Of a stretch of DNA of 6,536 nucleotides, positions 1,116 to 5,535 are shown piece after piece; the first letter of the stretch is position 1; every line of letters starts with the position of its first letter. This DNA comes from Candidatus Hydrogenedentes bacterium CG07_land_8_20_14_0_80_42_17. Its GTDB lineage: Bacteria > UBA8481. The position numbers and the translations under genes are program-made. Location: the NCBI GenBank assembly GCA_002780065.1, contig PEWQ01000105.1:1-6536 (forward strand), read 5' to 3'. The notes below the pieces were generated by a model. That model was not told the origin of the DNA and did not search any database. It saw nothing but the letters and a program-made list of their open reading frames with translations.

Positions 1116-2461
1116 TATAGTTTTCTCAAAACATTAGTAGCTTTTCCGAAATAAAATGACTGTATCAGTAAGTATGCGCCGCGCCCCAGAACTAGAATCG
1201 GTAAAAATATTTCAGGGTCGCCGAGAAGAGTCAAAATTGCCAGCAGAAAAAGCATTACATCTCGACTGATGCACCGCGCAAATTGAGGCAGAAGTGTCTT
1301 TGCCGGTTTCCATGTTTCTCCAAGAATTAAGCCGAGAGCAGTCAAGGAATCTCCCGCACCCACATAAAGAATATTTGTCAATAGAGCTCCGAATGTCCAA
1401 ATCCATTCTCCAGTCCCATACGCTATTCCAAGAAAAATAGAATACTCGCCAAGCATATCGCCGTGCCGATCGAGCCATGCTCCAAGATAGGAGGTTTTGA
1501 ACTTGAGTCGCGCAATTTCACCATCTATTCCATCGACAACCGAATGGAGATGAACAAATATTCCTCCAAGAATAAAATGTTTGGTTCCAATCAATAACGC
1601 AGCTGAAACGCCGAATAATACCGCAAGAAGCGTTCCTGCATTTGGAGAAAAATTAATTCTCGCCAGCCTTCGAGTAAAAAAAAGAGAAACTGGCCGATTG
1701 AAAAGCCGAGATACCGGGCCGTCTCGACCTTTGACCAGTTGAGAAAGCAAAAAATTTTCAGCATAAGGAATCATCTCTGGAGTATCAACATCAACCCACT
1801 CAGCATTGTCAATAATTAAGGCGTTCATTACTCCTCTCTCTGACAAAATTTTTATTGCACCGGAAATAGAAGTGTCTCCTCGTGATTCAGACTCTCGAAG
1901 CGCAGAAAAAATTCCTTGAGTCATCTTGAAACAGCCCATATCGACTGAATCAAATTCATTTAAAGTTTTTCCGATTTTTTTTATCTTGAGACAACTCTCT
2001 TCAGTAACCGTCACTACTTTTGTCGCATCATCGAGATCCGGGATTTCATTAATTCGAGTATCAACCGCGAGCACAGCTCCACCAACAGGAACATGGAAGT
2101 CAATCAAACTCGAAATAACTGTCGGCGGCGCAAGGTGGTCCGACATCAAAACCAAAAAGTCTTCATCTTTTACAATTTCCTCTGCAGAAAGAATCGAAAG
2201 ACCGTTTGATTCTTCAAATCTCTTATTGAAGATAATTTCAATATTCTTTTTAATATTATCAGGAAGCCGTTGAAGTTCTTTTTGAATCTCTTCAGCGCGA
2301 TAGCCTAGAACAACGACAACTTTATTAGCTCCTCCTAATAACGCATTTCGTATCACTCGCACAAGCAAAGGAACTCCAAGAATAGGAGTCAATGGTTTAG
2401 GAAGAGTTTCAGTTGTAGATAATCTTGTTCCTTTTCCCGCCGCAACAATTACAGCTTTCAT
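1115..2461 (-). CDS. Fused sugar/polyol-phosphate cytidylyltransferase and CDP-alcohol phosphotransferase (IPCT/DIPPS-like)
   Basis: Two-domain enzyme of 448 residues. Residues 1-240 form a nucleotidyltransferase fold: AAGKGTRL at 7-14 and PKP at 21-23 bind the NTP, and SDH at 107-109 and VDVD at 223-226 give metal-ligand aspartates. Residues 250-448 form a membrane CDP-alcohol phosphotransferase with the complete D-x2-DG-x2-AR-x8-G-x3-D-x3-D signature (D310, D313-G314, A317-R318, G327, D331, D335) and several hydrophobic helices. This order is known from the bifunctional CTP:inositol-1-phosphate cytidylyltransferase/di-myo-inositol-phosphate-phosphate synthase of Archaeoglobus and Thermotoga. 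By analogy the first domain makes a CDP-polyol and the second transfers the phosphopolyol to an alcohol. The inositol substrate is an inference: no inositol-phosphate synthase is visible, and another polyol or a lipid headgroup is possible. The start shares ATGA with the upstream gene, and GAGAAG lies 8 bases before it. Confidence 0.9.
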   Translation of the reverse strand: MKAVIVAAGKGTRLSTTETLPKPLTPILGVPLLVRVIRNALLGGANKVVVVLGYRAEEIQKELQRLPDNIKKNIEIIFNKRFEESNGLSILSAEEIVKDEDFLVLMSDHLAPPTVISSLIDFHVPVGGAVLAVDTRINEIPDLDDATKVVTVTEESCLKIKKIGKTLNEFDSVDMGCFKMTQGIFSALRESESRGDTSISGAIKILSERGVMNALIIDNAEWVDVDTPEMIPYAENFLLSQLVKGRDGPVSRLFNRPVSLFFTRRLARINFSPNAGTLLAVLFGVSAALLIGTKHFILGGIFVHLHSVVDGIDGEIARLKFKTSYLGAWLDRHGDMLGEYSIFLGIAYGTGEWIWTFGALLTNILYVGAGDSLTALGLILGETWKPAKTLLPQFARCISRDVMLFLLAILTLLGDPEIFLPILVLGRGAYLLIQSFYFGKATNVLRKL

Positions 2462-3129
2462 TGAGCAGTCTTCTCAGTAGCTATAATTTTTTCCCATAAC
2501 GAAATCCATTGTGGAAGTAAGATTGCCGGTAGAAAAATTATTATCCATAATCCGAACTCAATTTTGCCGACCAAACAAGAAATGATAAAAACAATATCGC
2601 ATAGTTCACGGCCCATTGCCCAATAATGCGAAGTAGAAAAGAACGCAGAATTCAATTTGATTACAGATTCAGGAGAATTAATTCGACGAATGGCAGGAAT
2701 TTCTACAACCAAAGATATTGCCGAATATGAAAATATATTTGCAAAGATAGCGGCGGTAAGCCCGAAAATCGGATGTTTTATTCCAAAACCTGCAGAAAGC
2801 AGAATTAATGCATCAAAGAAAATACGCAATAAATAAAAGCGCCTTGCCGCAAGAGAGTTCAATTTTGTGTTGAATTCTGATCCTCTTTCTCGAGAAAATA
2901 TTAAAACAATAAAATAAATAATCAACGTCGCAGAGGCTAATCTGCTCATTCCAAACGCTAAAAGAAATGCGGAGAGCAATCCCGAAGAAAAAGTGATAAT
3001 GCAAGCGTAATTGTAAGGTAATATTTTTCTATTTTTTGAAAAAGACTTCAAAATTATTGAGCCATTGTCAAATCTCTCTGCAACAATTTCTTCAATAGAT
3101 TTTTGAGAGCCTATAATTTCATTTTTCAT
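2458..3129 (-). CDS. Six-helix membrane protein of unknown function, coupled to the CDP-alcohol enzyme
   Basis: Not recognised as a named family. From the ATG at 3129 it has 223 residues. A polar N-terminal stretch of about 38 residues is followed by about six hydrophobic segments (roughly 39-60, 65-79, 99-117, 119-143, 174-190, 191-209). The TTG six bases upstream at 3135 is possible but less likely than the ATG. The first membrane segment, starting LPYNYACIITFSSGLLSAF, resembles the N-terminal helix of CDP-alcohol phosphotransferases, and D106 sits where one of their catalytic aspartates might fall, but the rest of the DG-AR-G-D-D signature is absent. It could be a degenerate, non-catalytic relative or an unrelated membrane partner. 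Its stop overlaps the start of the fused CDP-alcohol enzyme (ATGA), so the two are probably made in fixed ratio and may act together. It is the first gene of the leftward operon. Confidence 0.8.
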   Translation of the reverse strand: MKNEIIGSQKSIEEIVAERFDNGSIILKSFSKNRKILPYNYACIITFSSGLLSAFLLAFGMSRLASATLIIYFIVLIFSRERGSEFNTKLNSLAARRFYLLRIFFDALILLSAGFGIKHPIFGLTAAIFANIFSYSAISLVVEIPAIRRINSPESVIKLNSAFFSTSHYWAMGRELCDIVFIISCLVGKIEFGLWIIIFLPAILLPQWISLWEKIIATEKTAQ

Positions 3130-3136
3130 ATTCAAG

Positions 3137-3164
3137 ATACTAACAAAGTTTAAAGCTTAAACAA
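3137..3164 (-). promoter_or_regulatory. Predicted promoter of the leftward glycan operon
   Basis: Reading the minus strand, TTGTTT (3164-3159) and TAGTAT (3142-3137) are 16 bases apart, a fair match to a sigma-70-type promoter. The -10 hexamer ends 7 bases before the ATG at 3129, so the transcript would begin at or next to the start codon. The -35 hexamer lies inside the left copy of the 26-bp repeat. This is a prediction from sequence only, in AT-rich DNA where such matches arise by chance. Confidence 0.4.
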
Positions 3165-3182
3165 TCATTCAGCTTCACTCAT
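3157..3182. repeat. Left copy of a perfect 26-bp direct repeat
   Basis: The 26 bases from 3157 to 3182 (beginning TTAAACAATC and ending TTCACTCAT) are identical, in the same orientation, to 4520-4545. The repeats lie just outside the two-gene toxin-antitoxin module. A perfect 26-base match is far beyond chance in a window of this size even with biased composition. Beyond the exact match the right-hand sides stay loosely alike (both AT-rich, with AAAT and TTTAT blocks), so an older, imperfect extension is possible but not shown. Confidence 0.93.
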
Positions 3183-3196
3183 TCATAAATAATTTA

Positions 3197-3721
3197 TTAT
3201 TTTATATCAATCGATATTGCGCCGCCGAGCGAAGAAACTAGCCTTTTTATCGTGATGAGAGAAACATTATCTCTGCCACTTTCCATTCGAGATATAAGTT
3301 GCTGGGATACTTTCATTTTTTCTGCGAGTTGTTTCTGAGTTAAACCTTTTTGTTTCCTTATCAACTTAATTTTATTTCCAACCGCCAAACATAATTCATC
3401 AATCGGTTTCGCATCTTTATTAACACCATTTATTTGAATATTTTTGTTTCGAAGTTTTTCTGCTATTTTCTCATAGATTGCCTGCCAAAACTCTATTCTA
3501 CGGTCGTTCCATTTATCTTTTCTCATCACCTTTTTTATCAAATGCCAATTACGACAGAAATTTATTGGAGTTATGTATTTAGTAAGAACTTCCTTTGGTG
3601 AATTTTCACGAGCTAGTAATACTGCAGAAAACTTTAGAAATTTTTTATCTTGAGGGTTTCTTAAAATTTTTTTTACTTCACATTTGCTGATTTTCATATC
3701 CCAAAGCCAATTGCTTTTCAT
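3197..3721 (-). CDS. XRE-family helix-turn-helix protein with novel-looking N-terminal domain, probable antitoxin/repressor
   Basis: A 174-residue protein. Residues about 112-170 are an XRE/Cro-type helix-turn-helix: IRKQKGLTQKQLAEKMKVSQ at 121-140 gives the first two helices, QLISRMESGRDNVS at 141-154 the recognition helix and following turn, and ITIKRLVSSLGG at 156-167 the closing helices. Residues 1-100 are charged, rich in Lys, Arg and Trp (NWLWDMK near the start, KWNDRRIEFWQAIYEKI at 70-86), and I cannot assign them to a named domain. They may bind the toxin. The ATG at 3721 shares ATGA with the toxin stop, which favours it over the in-frame ATG at 3697. No Shine-Dalgarno is evident, in keeping with coupled re-initiation. 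It likely neutralises the toxin and represses the module promoter through the paired dyad sites upstream of the toxin (inference). Confidence 0.85.
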   Translation of the reverse strand: MKSNWLWDMKISKCEVKKILRNPQDKKFLKFSAVLLARENSPKEVLTKYITPINFCRNWHLIKKVMRKDKWNDRRIEFWQAIYEKIAEKLRNKNIQINGVNKDAKPIDELCLAVGNKIKLIRKQKGLTQKQLAEKMKVSQQLISRMESGRDNVSLITIKRLVSSLGGAISIDIK

Positions 3722-4434
3722 ATAAAATCAATCTTATATTCAATTAAGTTGTCGATTTCTTTTTTAAAATGTTTTTCAATATTCTGATAGTCGATTCTTT
3801 TTTTTAGTTTCAAATCTTGTAAGCCTATTTTTATTTTCATTCTGTTATAAGTGCGATACCACAATATAAGATTTTCACAGACAACATTATCGCAATATTG
3901 TTCTGCAAAATCTGCGAGCCCAATGAATGTATTAGAAAGATAATACAAATCGCAAAAATCTTTTTCTTCCTGTCGCCCGCCTTGCCCTCTATTCCTCCCG
4001 GTATTGTCTTCTATTTGCCAATATCCTGCCACCGCATATATCTTTCTCAAATAGATATCTTCAAGCGACATCACATTCACACCGTCAATAATTCTCAAAG
4101 GTTTAATAAGTTTTATGTAATCCTCCACAAAATCTATTTTTAATTTGGTGTTTTTGCTTAGTGCGATAGAAAATACCATTATTTTTACCATATTTTTACT
4201 CATTTGTTGGTTTAATAACTCAATTGGTTTGTGCAAAGCTTCAGACAAACTTCTTACAATTCTTGTAATCTTTAATTTATTAAATTTATCCGTAAAGAAA
4301 TCCAGATCGTCTGAATCTCTATGCTGAAAATAGAAATTAGAAAGCGCCGTCCCTCCAGCTAAATAGAAATCGTCATTTTTATTTGCAAGAATCTTTAAAA
4401 CCTCTTCCTGATATATTCCTATTTTGCTTTTCAT
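3718..4434 (-). CDS. AbiEii/AbiGii-family nucleotidyltransferase toxin (DUF1814-like)
   Basis: A 238-residue protein with the layout of AbiEii/MenT-type toxins in the DNA polymerase beta-like nucleotidyltransferase fold. FYLAGGTALSNFYF at 23-36 holds the GGTAL substrate loop. RDSDDLDFF at 39-47 holds the D-x-D metal pair (D43, D45). KIDFVED at 99-105 gives a third acidic residue (D101), and LEDIYLRKIYA at 124-134 then GGRQEEKDFCDLYYL at 152-166 give the conserved Lys and Asp of the later motifs. Catalytic positions look intact. Relatives such as MenT3 transfer nucleotides to tRNA and stop translation; other family members act in phage abortive infection. The toxin comes first and the regulator second, unlike classical AbiE, where the antitoxin AbiEi comes first. 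The ATG lies 6 bases after a -10-like hexamer. A direct chemical target cannot be deduced. Confidence 0.9.
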   Translation of the reverse strand: MKSKIGIYQEEVLKILANKNDDFYLAGGTALSNFYFQHRDSDDLDFFTDKFNKLKITRIVRSLSEALHKPIELLNQQMSKNMVKIMVFSIALSKNTKLKIDFVEDYIKLIKPLRIIDGVNVMSLEDIYLRKIYAVAGYWQIEDNTGRNRGQGGRQEEKDFCDLYYLSNTFIGLADFAEQYCDNVVCENLILWYRTYNRMKIKIGLQDLKLKKRIDYQNIEKHFKKEIDNLIEYKIDFI

Positions 4435-4440
4435 ATCCAG

Positions 4441-4469
4441 ATTCTACAACATATAAATTGTTTTTTCAA
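4441..4469 (-). promoter_or_regulatory. Predicted promoter of the toxin-antitoxin module
   Basis: On the minus strand TTGAAA (4469-4464) and TAGAAT (4446-4441) are separated by exactly 17 bases, a good sigma-70-type match. The -10 ends 6 bases before the toxin ATG, implying a leaderless or nearly leaderless transcript. The spacer is almost entirely occupied by the proximal operator copy, so a protein bound there would block RNA polymerase. Confidence 0.6.
4446..4462. promoter_or_regulatory. Operator-like repeat, proximal copy
   Basis: ACAACATATAAATTGTT matches the distal copy at 15 of 17 positions. It keeps a partial dyad (ACAAC facing ATTGT, 4 of 5 pairs). It fills the -35/-10 spacer of the module promoter. 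It is the likely lower-affinity site of the module's own XRE protein (inference). Confidence 0.6.
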
Positions 4470-4472
4470 GTT

Positions 4473-4494
4473 ATAACAACATATAGGTTGTTAT
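4473..4494. promoter_or_regulatory. Operator-like palindrome, distal copy
   Basis: ATAACAAC (4473-4480) and GTTGTTAT (4487-4494) are perfect 8-bp inverted arms around a 6-base centre. The centre of this dyad is 30 bp from the centre of the proximal copy, about three helical turns, so two dimers would sit on the same DNA face. It lies just upstream of the module -35. This is the expected design for an autoregulated toxin-antitoxin operon with a dimeric XRE repressor. Confidence 0.65.
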
Positions 4495-4519
4495 TTTGTA
4501 TTGACTTCTAACTATTCTT

Positions 4520-4545
4520 TTAAACAATCATTCAGCTTCACTCAT
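4520..4545. repeat. Right copy of the perfect 26-bp direct repeat
   Basis: Identical to 3157-3182 in the same orientation. It lies upstream of the GT2 glycosyltransferase ATG and overlaps that gene's predicted -35. An in-frame TTG at 4501 would extend the GT2 reading frame through this repeat, but those added residues do not belong to the glycosyltransferase fold. Confidence 0.93.
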
Positions 4546-4566
4546 CAGCCAAAATTAGTTTATGAT
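4537..4566 (+). promoter_or_regulatory. Predicted promoter of the rightward glycan operon
   Basis: TTCACT (4537-4542) and TATGAT (4561-4566) are 18 bases apart. The -10 ends 6 bases before the ATG at 4573, the same short spacing seen at the toxin gene. The -35 lies inside the right repeat copy, while the -10 is in unique flanking sequence. The match is weak to moderate. Confidence 0.4.
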
Positions 4567-4572
4567 TTAGGT

Positions 4573-5535
4573 ATGTCTTCAACAAAATTCGATATCTCGA
4601 TATTCATAACTAACTGGAATGGTTATTCGCACGGTTATATTCAAGAAGCCTTTCCTAGCATAAGAAAAGCGGTCTCAAACTATTCAAAAGGAAGATGCGA
4701 GATAATCGTAGTTGATGATATAAGTTCCGATGAAAGCGCAGAATGGATCAAAAAAAATTATCCTGAATTTAAATTGCTGATACCAGAAAAAAATCTCGGC
4801 TATCAGGAAGCTTCAAACTTCGCAGTCAAAAATTGTAAATACGATATTCTTATTTCACTCAATAATGATATTAAGCTCGAAAAAAATGTCTTGAATAAAA
4901 TTGTCGAGCATTTCAACGACCCGCTTGTTTTTGCCGTCAGCACAAAGGTTTATCTATGGGATGAAAAGACGTATCTTGCCGGACACAGATACGCTGAAAT
5001 AAAGCACGGACTTTTTCTGCTTCATGACTCCGGTGATATAATATCCAATATTCGCATGACTCTCTTTGCGACTGGCGGCGCAGCAGCATTCAGAAAAGAG
5101 ATGTATCTTAAACTCGGAGGATTTCAGCGAATATTTCATCCGCTTTACTGGGAGGATATTGATCTCTGCTACCGCGCACTAAAACGCGACTGGAAGGTTT
5201 TGTATGATCCGAACTGCATCATGTATCACAAGCATCAGGCAACAATTAAGAAGATGTATGATCCAAAAAATCTAGGGCTGATAACCGCAAGAAACAGCTA
5301 CATTTTTTTCTGGAAAAATATTACTGATAAGAAATTTTTATTCGAGCATCTTATCTACACATTTATTTTTCACATCCGCGACCTTTTCAAAATGCGCTTC
5401 AGGTTCATAACTGCTACATTTATGGCATTATCACGGATTCGACAAATTTTGAAATTGCGTTTGGAAGAAAAGAGAGAGGGATTTCAGTTATCCGACAGAG
5501 AAGTTCTCGATATACTGAAGAAGGAGAAGATTTGA
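4573..5535 (+). CDS. GT2-family glycosyltransferase
   Basis: A 320-residue inverting glycosyltransferase with a GT-A fold, probably acting on the cytoplasmic face of the membrane to add a sugar to a glycan intermediate. DISIFITNWNG at 7-17 opens the fold, VVDDISSDES at 46-55 binds the nucleotide, and NLGYQEASNFAV at 74-85 and SLNNDI at 95-100 supply the donor and metal site (NND in place of a strict DXD, common in rhamnosyltransferase-like GT2). ATGGAAAFRKE at 166-176 and WEDIDLCYRA at 193-202 contain the acceptor-side ED pair (E194, D195). This is the usual motif order for the family. The C-terminal 60 residues are basic and partly hydrophobic, suggesting peripheral membrane contact. I chose the ATG at 4573 over the TTG at 4501 because the fold begins six residues after it and the extra residues would be encoded in the repeat and promoter. 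The specific sugar is unknown. Confidence 0.93.
   Translation: MSSTKFDISIFITNWNGYSHGYIQEAFPSIRKAVSNYSKGRCEIIVVDDISSDESAEWIKKNYPEFKLLIPEKNLGYQEASNFAVKNCKYDILISLNNDIKLEKNVLNKIVEHFNDPLVFAVSTKVYLWDEKTYLAGHRYAEIKHGLFLLHDSGDIISNIRMTLFATGGAAAFRKEMYLKLGGFQRIFHPLYWEDIDLCYRALKRDWKVLYDPNCIMYHKHQATIKKMYDPKNLGLITARNSYIFFWKNITDKKFLFEHLIYTFIFHIRDLFKMRFRFITATFMALSRIRQILKLRLEEKREGFQLSDREVLDILKKEKI
5521..5526 (+). promoter_or_regulatory. Strong ribosome binding site of the epimerase gene
   Basis: AAGGAG lies 9 bases before the epimerase ATG, inside the last codons of the GT2 gene. It shows that this organism does use Shine-Dalgarno pairing for internal genes, in contrast to the operon-leading genes here, which have none. 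Confidence 0.75.

Follow-up and report, generated by a model that had tools for sequence, protein, structure and literature searches.

The window, by which we mean the whole 6,536-nt stretch of DNA analyzed here, hosts an AbiEii/XRE gene pair placed between two identical copies of a 26-bp sequence (TTAAACAATCATTCAGCTTCACTCAT), outside of which a membrane-protein gene and a GT2 glycosyltransferase gene are divergently oriented. The features of this locus are listed in order of position.

2458-3135, minus strand: left neighbour, membrane-protein gene, complete, likely start ATG at 3129, no Pfam family
3137-3164, minus strand: predicted membrane-gene promoter, TTGTTT (3164-3159, within the left copy) and TAGTAT (3142-3137) with 16 nt between them, 7 nt to the ATG
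3157-3182, plus strand: presumed duplicated target, left copy, exact match to 4520-4545
3183-4519, no strand assigned: presumed inserted segment of 1337 bp between the repeat copies
3197-3721, minus strand: XRE-type partner, 174 aa, PF01381 (HTH_3), E 4e-14, 53 bits
3718-4434, minus strand: predicted AbiEii-family nucleotidyltransferase toxin, 238 aa, PF08843 and PADLOC AbiEii
4441-4469, minus strand: predicted module promoter, TTGAAA (4469-4464) and TAGAAT (4446-4441), 6 nt to the ATG, leaderless type
4446-4461, no strand assigned: putative operator 1, ACAACATATAAATTGT, between the promoter hexamers (repeat D4)
4476-4491, no strand assigned: putative operator 2, ACAACATATAGGTTGT, in tandem with operator 1
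4520-4545, plus strand: presumed duplicated target, right copy, exact match to 3157-3182
4537-4566, plus strand: predicted GT2 gene promoter, TTCACT (4537-4542, within the right copy) and TATGAT (4561-4566), 6 nt to the ATG, consensus match only
4573-5535, plus strand: right neighbour, GT2 glycosyltransferase gene, complete, PF00535, E 2e-18

The AbiEii assignment is based on the Pfam profile (PF08843, 61 bits, E 2e-16, with a cut-off of 22.5 bits) as well as on PADLOC (AbiEii, E 7.5e-11), and the protein shows the conserved blocks GGTALS and SDDLDFF. The partner gene is located after the toxin gene, overlapping it by 4 bp, and carries its HTH_3 domain at the C-terminal end of the encoded protein, which probably acts as antitoxin and repressor; toxicity of the one and antitoxin function of the other are predicted from the protein families. 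Identity of the AbiEii protein to its relatives is 55-56% for those from other uncultured bacteria and 44-49% for those from Omnitrophota, and a partner with a WLWD-like start and an HTH end adjoins most of the closer relatives. Comparison of the protein with plasmids and phages gave no match; its profile retrieved only distant relatives (32% identity) from viral sequences and had no match among solved structures. No AbiEi-type domain was detected in the partner, which shows HTH_3-like domains only. Because the partner is not AbiEi, the module does not represent a canonical AbiE pair.

Upstream of the toxin gene, two 16-bp palindromes of the form ACAACATATA are found 30 bp apart around the predicted -35 and -10 hexamers, and tandem palindromes at the matching position also occur in L070, L071, and L072. 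Given its own promoter and these tandem palindromes, kept in L070, L071, and L072, the insert would constitute a complete and probably autoregulated unit. All promoter assignments within the window are consensus readings. The 26-bp duplication would hold a predicted -35 element of each divergent promoter, namely TTCACT and, more weakly, TTGTTT, the latter being a weak -35 for the membrane-protein gene. Within the 26-mer (3165-3181), the motifs TCATTCA and TCACTCA are placed ten bases, i.e., one helical turn, apart, and possibly represent a putative regulator binding site for both operons. In a sample of 407 starts from the same genome, a TANNNT hexamer ending 6 nt before the ATG was counted in 40 cases vs about 11 at neighbouring positions, an approximately fourfold excess regarded as a signature of leaderless mRNA, and a Shine-Dalgarno-like motif was present at 118 of these starts.

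The preliminary description of this DNA had drawn attention to a perfect repeat, a symmetric junction, and a module devoid of any recombinase, all of which were confirmed. The two copies of the 26-mer are exact, both on the plus strand, with a start-to-start spacing of 1363. Even with up to three mismatches allowed, they are the only two copies in the whole assembly (2.39 Mb in 207 contigs), and a reversed control of the assembly gave 0 matches. The longest exact repeat within 200 dinucleotide shuffles of the window measured 17 bp vs the 26 bp observed. Each copy is separated by 27 bp from the start codon of its neighbouring gene (ATG at 3129 for the left copy, ATG at 4573 for the right one); the junction with a single copy would thus span 27 + 26 + 27 = 80 bp between both start codons. 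Between the two copies, only the AbiEii and XRE (HTH_3) genes are present, and the GC content of the 1337-bp insert is 31% compared with 37% in the flanks. The 6,536-nt window contains neither a transposase or integrase gene nor a tRNA, and the insert has no terminal inverted repeat, the longest match between its ends being 6 bp. None of the viral contigs searched carries the 26-mer. An empty site could not be located via the membrane-protein neighbour, as no relatives of it were found in 60 genomes and a contig collection, and it is absent from the other examined genome of the phylum.

Extension of the analysis toward the rest of the genome was performed by scanning 1.146 Mb (about half) of the same metagenome-assembled genome (MAG) for two-copy direct repeats placed 300-4000 bp apart. 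The repeat scores decay to about 19 and then jump to a separate set; in total, 12 loci reach at least that level. At seven of these 12 top loci the repeat brackets exactly one toxin-type module and nothing else:

C135: RhuM module, repeat 58/58 bp
C55: PIN_3 module, repeat 75/76 bp
C82: YafQ-family pair, repeat 60/60 bp, plus 36/43 beyond a short gap
C137: MNT/HepT module, repeat 49/50 bp
C197: Fic module, repeat 57/59 bp
C2: RelB/RelE-like pair, repeat 23/24 bp
Window: AbiEii/XRE module, repeat 26/26 bp

The duplications within this genome thus measure 24, 26, 50, 58, 59, 60, and 76 bp and are longer than those made by insertion sequences, the one in the window being the second shortest of the seven toxin-type cases. 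Random placement of segments of the same size would be expected to yield 0.016 toxin-bracketing cases among 12 vs the seven observed, a value that counts the 12 toxin modules known in the sample and that would leave the picture the same with several times more of them. As a control, albeit a weak one, a scan of 90 random ORFs revealed no toxin-antitoxin family among the 25 of 112 families listed. Not every such module is scarred: no repeat of this kind was found around the ParE modules on C92 and C101 or the MNT/HepT module on C145, nor did a 275-kb sample of the other examined genome of the phylum show any. The repeats at the remaining five of the 12 loci were rejected as members of this class: L173 represents tandem paralogous AIM24-like genes, L219 lies within one long coding ORF (with an FAD-binding type motif by reading), L198 is found inside one gene, L189 consists of hairpin repeats, and L187 is a 23-bp repeat around three ordinary genes.

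The ancestral junctions at these loci were predicted by joining the flanks with one copy of the repeat. At each of the seven loci, the insert leaves both neighbouring genes whole, and the duplications are placed on gene junctions or promoters. For PIN, the duplicated piece is contained in the overlap of convergent 3' ends, in the YafQ and Fic cases it spans operon junctions with an ORF overlap of about 4 bp, and in the RelBE case it spans both convergent stop codons, 11 bp apart. In the MNT/HepT, RhuM, and window cases, it is located in promoter regions and carries a promoter or a start. On C137, the left copy supplies the ATG at which the first gene of the MNT/HepT module starts, and on C135, the left copy places RhuM behind the next gene's TATGAT hexamer; by this reading, both modules have taken over a copy of their neighbour's start region. 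A motif common to the seven targets was not detected, with no k-mer of 6-8 shared beyond shuffles. Likewise, no relationship exists between the ends of the seven inserts, which show neither a common motif nor an inverted repeat (longest shared stretch 4-8 bp).

A dispersed element of the same genome deserves separate mention. A further AbiEii pair is arranged back to back with an MNT/HepT pair (G000 C204:14239-15940; L009 6240, 7246, 7905), and they stand between three direct copies of GGGGTCAGGCTTGAACTTTTTTACTTTTTC. This element occurs 29 times in the genome, its copies often forming inverted pairs spaced by about 110 bp. These repeats were rejected as target duplication, being copies of a dispersed 29-copy element and not a unique duplication. 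In addition, a 278-aa gene (G000 C131:21503-22417; L061 2004-2918) is located between inverted copies of GGGGTCAGGC belonging to the same dispersed element. Its product reads as a REP-associated Y1 transposase and may be a candidate for spreading the GGGGTCAGGC element.

Comparison with other genomes was carried out at first for 33 relatives of the AbiEii module, most of them without a flanking repeat and two with long ones. In Ca. Omnitrophica 4484_171 (L082), a relative of the window module is found within a 99/100-bp duplication that extends across the overlap of two genes, taking in the end of the mtaB-like and the start of the rluB-like one. In another Omnitrophota genome (L258), the mtaB-like and rluB-like genes are 2 bp apart with no insert, and their proteins share 59% and 52% identity, respectively, with those of L082. 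L258 is what we read as the empty junction predicted by an insertion, at ortholog distance; at all other loci, the ancestral state was deduced locus by locus. The copies flanking the second relative, L085, measure about 111 bp and have diverged (96/111). Extension of the comparison to 80 AbiEii loci added L138 and L139. In L138 (Acidobacteriota), the copies match at 201 of 209 bp (3382-3590 and 4684-4892) and originate in a transporter gene, at its 3' end, with a GC content of 35% in the insert vs 49% in the flanks. In L139 (Cloacimonadota), the bracketed module is a DUF433/DUF5615-like pair instead of AbiEii, and the 48/48-bp duplication (818-865 and 1507-1554) comes from where an imidazolonepropionase-like gene starts. 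Gene names beyond the Pfam calls at these loci are our reading of the sequence. Two further observations were made on toxin modules with repeats. A Bacteroidales contig (L134) has long direct repeats (143-263 and 1482-1602) bracketing a toxin module. The two ends of a 3357-bp contig (G357 C18, L059) overlap identically over 141 bp, and it contains toxin-antitoxin-type genes only, separated by direct repeats containing GGGTCAGGTCTTGAAAT in reverse; it would represent either a small circular molecule or toxin-antitoxin cassettes in tandem array.

Based on these data, we consider the 26-bp repeat to be the target duplication left by insertion of the 1.34-kb AbiEii/XRE segment into an 80-bp divergent promoter region between two glycan operons, one of at least seven such insertions, with a probability of roughly 80%. 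For the window locus itself, the insertion is deduced from the pattern across the genome. The earlier suggestion of a recorded insertion event is thereby strengthened, indirectly, by the six other scarred toxin-type modules in this genome and by the L082/L258 pair in Omnitrophota. In respect to the mechanism, the variable duplication lengths, the unrelated targets, and the unrelated ends lacking inverted repeats argue against one transposase or integrase, and we infer that no dedicated recombinase was involved. The best fit is given by integration through a single crossover or by illegitimate recombination, the module then being retained because of addiction. Most likely, the module would have arrived as a DNA fragment carrying or acquiring a short stretch matching the target. 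It may then have been circularised and integrated by a single crossover, or one of its ends may have been joined by homology and the other illegitimately, either route giving the variable structure of target, insert, and target. In homology-facilitated illegitimate recombination, one end is joined by homology, and twenty-odd bases are near the minimum for RecA-type recombination. A point against the single crossover is that the homology needed on the incoming DNA is not visible. Of the two routes of entry proposed in the preliminary description, insertion by short-homology recombination fits better than an enzyme acting in trans, the recombination step itself being inferred. The idea of a minimal mobile toxin-antitoxin cassette is retained insofar as the unit that moved appears to be just the module together with its promoter and operators, and is not supported with regard to a dedicated enzyme.

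The prevalence of toxin cargo can be understood in two ways: either toxin modules have a higher rate of entry, or inserts of other kinds soon disappear when the two copies recombine. Insertions into tight junctions would survive only if the duplicated piece leaves both neighbours whole, and the direct repeat would subsequently allow loss of the module by recombination. Since loss of a toxin-antitoxin pair is counter-selected, scars would persist mainly around addictive modules. We favour retention, combined with a filter for intact neighbours, as the reason for the toxin cargo.

Several alternative explanations of the repeat have to be weighed against such an insertion. End joining, which would be the same kind of insertion by a different step, in that a staggered double-strand break would be filled in and the module ligated, with duplication of the overhang, accounts for variable-length duplications formed without homology or transposase, as observed. 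It is weakened by the fact that no Ku homolog was found in the 87%-complete assembly, and overhangs of 60-200 nt are long for that route, which makes it rather unlikely. An integrase encoded elsewhere might recognise the 26 bp, the copies then being attL and attR of a non-autonomous element; a satellite-type element of this kind would indeed show a perfect short direct repeat at its ends and no recombinase inside. This is quite improbable considering seven targets without a common motif above shuffles and with lengths of 24-76 bp, and a 26-mer not found elsewhere in the assembly as an attachment site. Transposition in trans by an IS-like or casposon-like transposase with an unusually long target-site duplication would agree with the direct repeat and the single-copy target, and casposases are known to produce duplications of about 14 bp or more. 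Nevertheless, the insert ends are unrelated among the seven modules and share at most the 4-8 bp given above, without terminal inverted repeats, and the duplication length varies within one genome, so that we deem this reading very improbable. The cassette moved by an enzyme encoded elsewhere, as initially proposed, is not supported, given lengths of 24-76 bp in one genome, no target motif, and no inverted repeat.

Hardly more can be said for two independent regulatory elements or a pre-existing tandem duplication, with the module in between by chance or later insertion. The TCATTCA/TCACTCA pair spaced by one helical turn, overlapping the predicted -35 of both operons, speaks for it, against 26 identical bases with nothing similar elsewhere in the genome and the same scar at six unrelated modules with unrelated targets; we give it very little weight. 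That an assembler joined unrelated contigs at a short shared word, conceivable for a metagenome-assembled genome in 207 contigs, is scarcely credible at all, as a fixed k-mer would not give lengths varying by locus and mismatches (75/76, 57/59, 49/50), and the same structure occurs in the independent assemblies L082, L138, and L139.

Returning to insertion with target duplication, the seven scars around seven different modules in one genome provide exact module boundaries, readable targets, and predicted empty sites that can be checked. They point to how selfish toxin genes spread without a transposase, and separate two testable questions, i.e., how a module enters and why only addictive cargo keeps the scar. 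As a broader proposal, to which we assign even odds, stand-alone toxin-antitoxin, Fic, and RhuM modules in many phyla would form a transposase-free mobile class entering gene junctions with long, variable duplications of the target and kept by addiction, and a two-copy repeat of ~24-200 bp around 0.6-1.4 kb would serve as a general detector. If true, such repeats would flag recent toxin-antitoxin acquisitions as well as unknown toxin modules, by a direct-repeat search rule that needs no homology.

Among known systems, the pair is comparable to the AbiEi/AbiEii type IV system (PMC3985639) in terms of the AbiEii nucleotidyltransferase, the two-gene operon, and the repressor-like partner, but differs by its WLWD...HTH_3 (XRE) protein encoded after the toxin and lacking an AbiEi domain. 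Integron cassettes with toxin-antitoxin modules likewise are small mobile units flanked by repeats; in contrast to these, the 26-mer is unique, the seven duplications share no sequence, and no array is present at the locus. Recircularised, partly homologous molecules have been found to integrate by single crossover, leaving duplications of 109-950 bp (PMC3240628). The resulting insert flanked by direct duplications of variable length resembles the one described here, whereas the laboratory duplications were obtained with designed homology and those of 24-76 bp in this genome have no visible source of homology. How toxin-antitoxin systems integrate was stated to be unelucidated in a 2020 review (PMC7167474), and the open literature searched contained no report of long-target-duplication insertion for toxin-antitoxin modules. 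The closest precedent are restriction-modification (RM) genes, for which insertion with long target duplication is credited to Nobusato et al. (2000), based on two genomes of Helicobacter pylori (PMC1643837); subsequent summaries speak of duplications that are long, variable, and in the order of 100 bp (PMC3874152, PMC3031569). The RM insertions share with our cases a lone addiction-type complex, variable target-derived direct repeats, and the lack of a transposase. The lengths of about 100 bp given there compare with 24-76 bp here and 48 to about 209 bp in other genomes, and H. pylori, where strain comparison showed the RM insertion, contrasts with the uncultured phyla of this study. Unlike in the original work, where RM complexes were frequently associated with such insertions, the cargo here consists of toxin-antitoxin, Fic, and RhuM modules. 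Hence, what is new is the finding of a known structure with a new class of cargo, represented by several examples within one genome.
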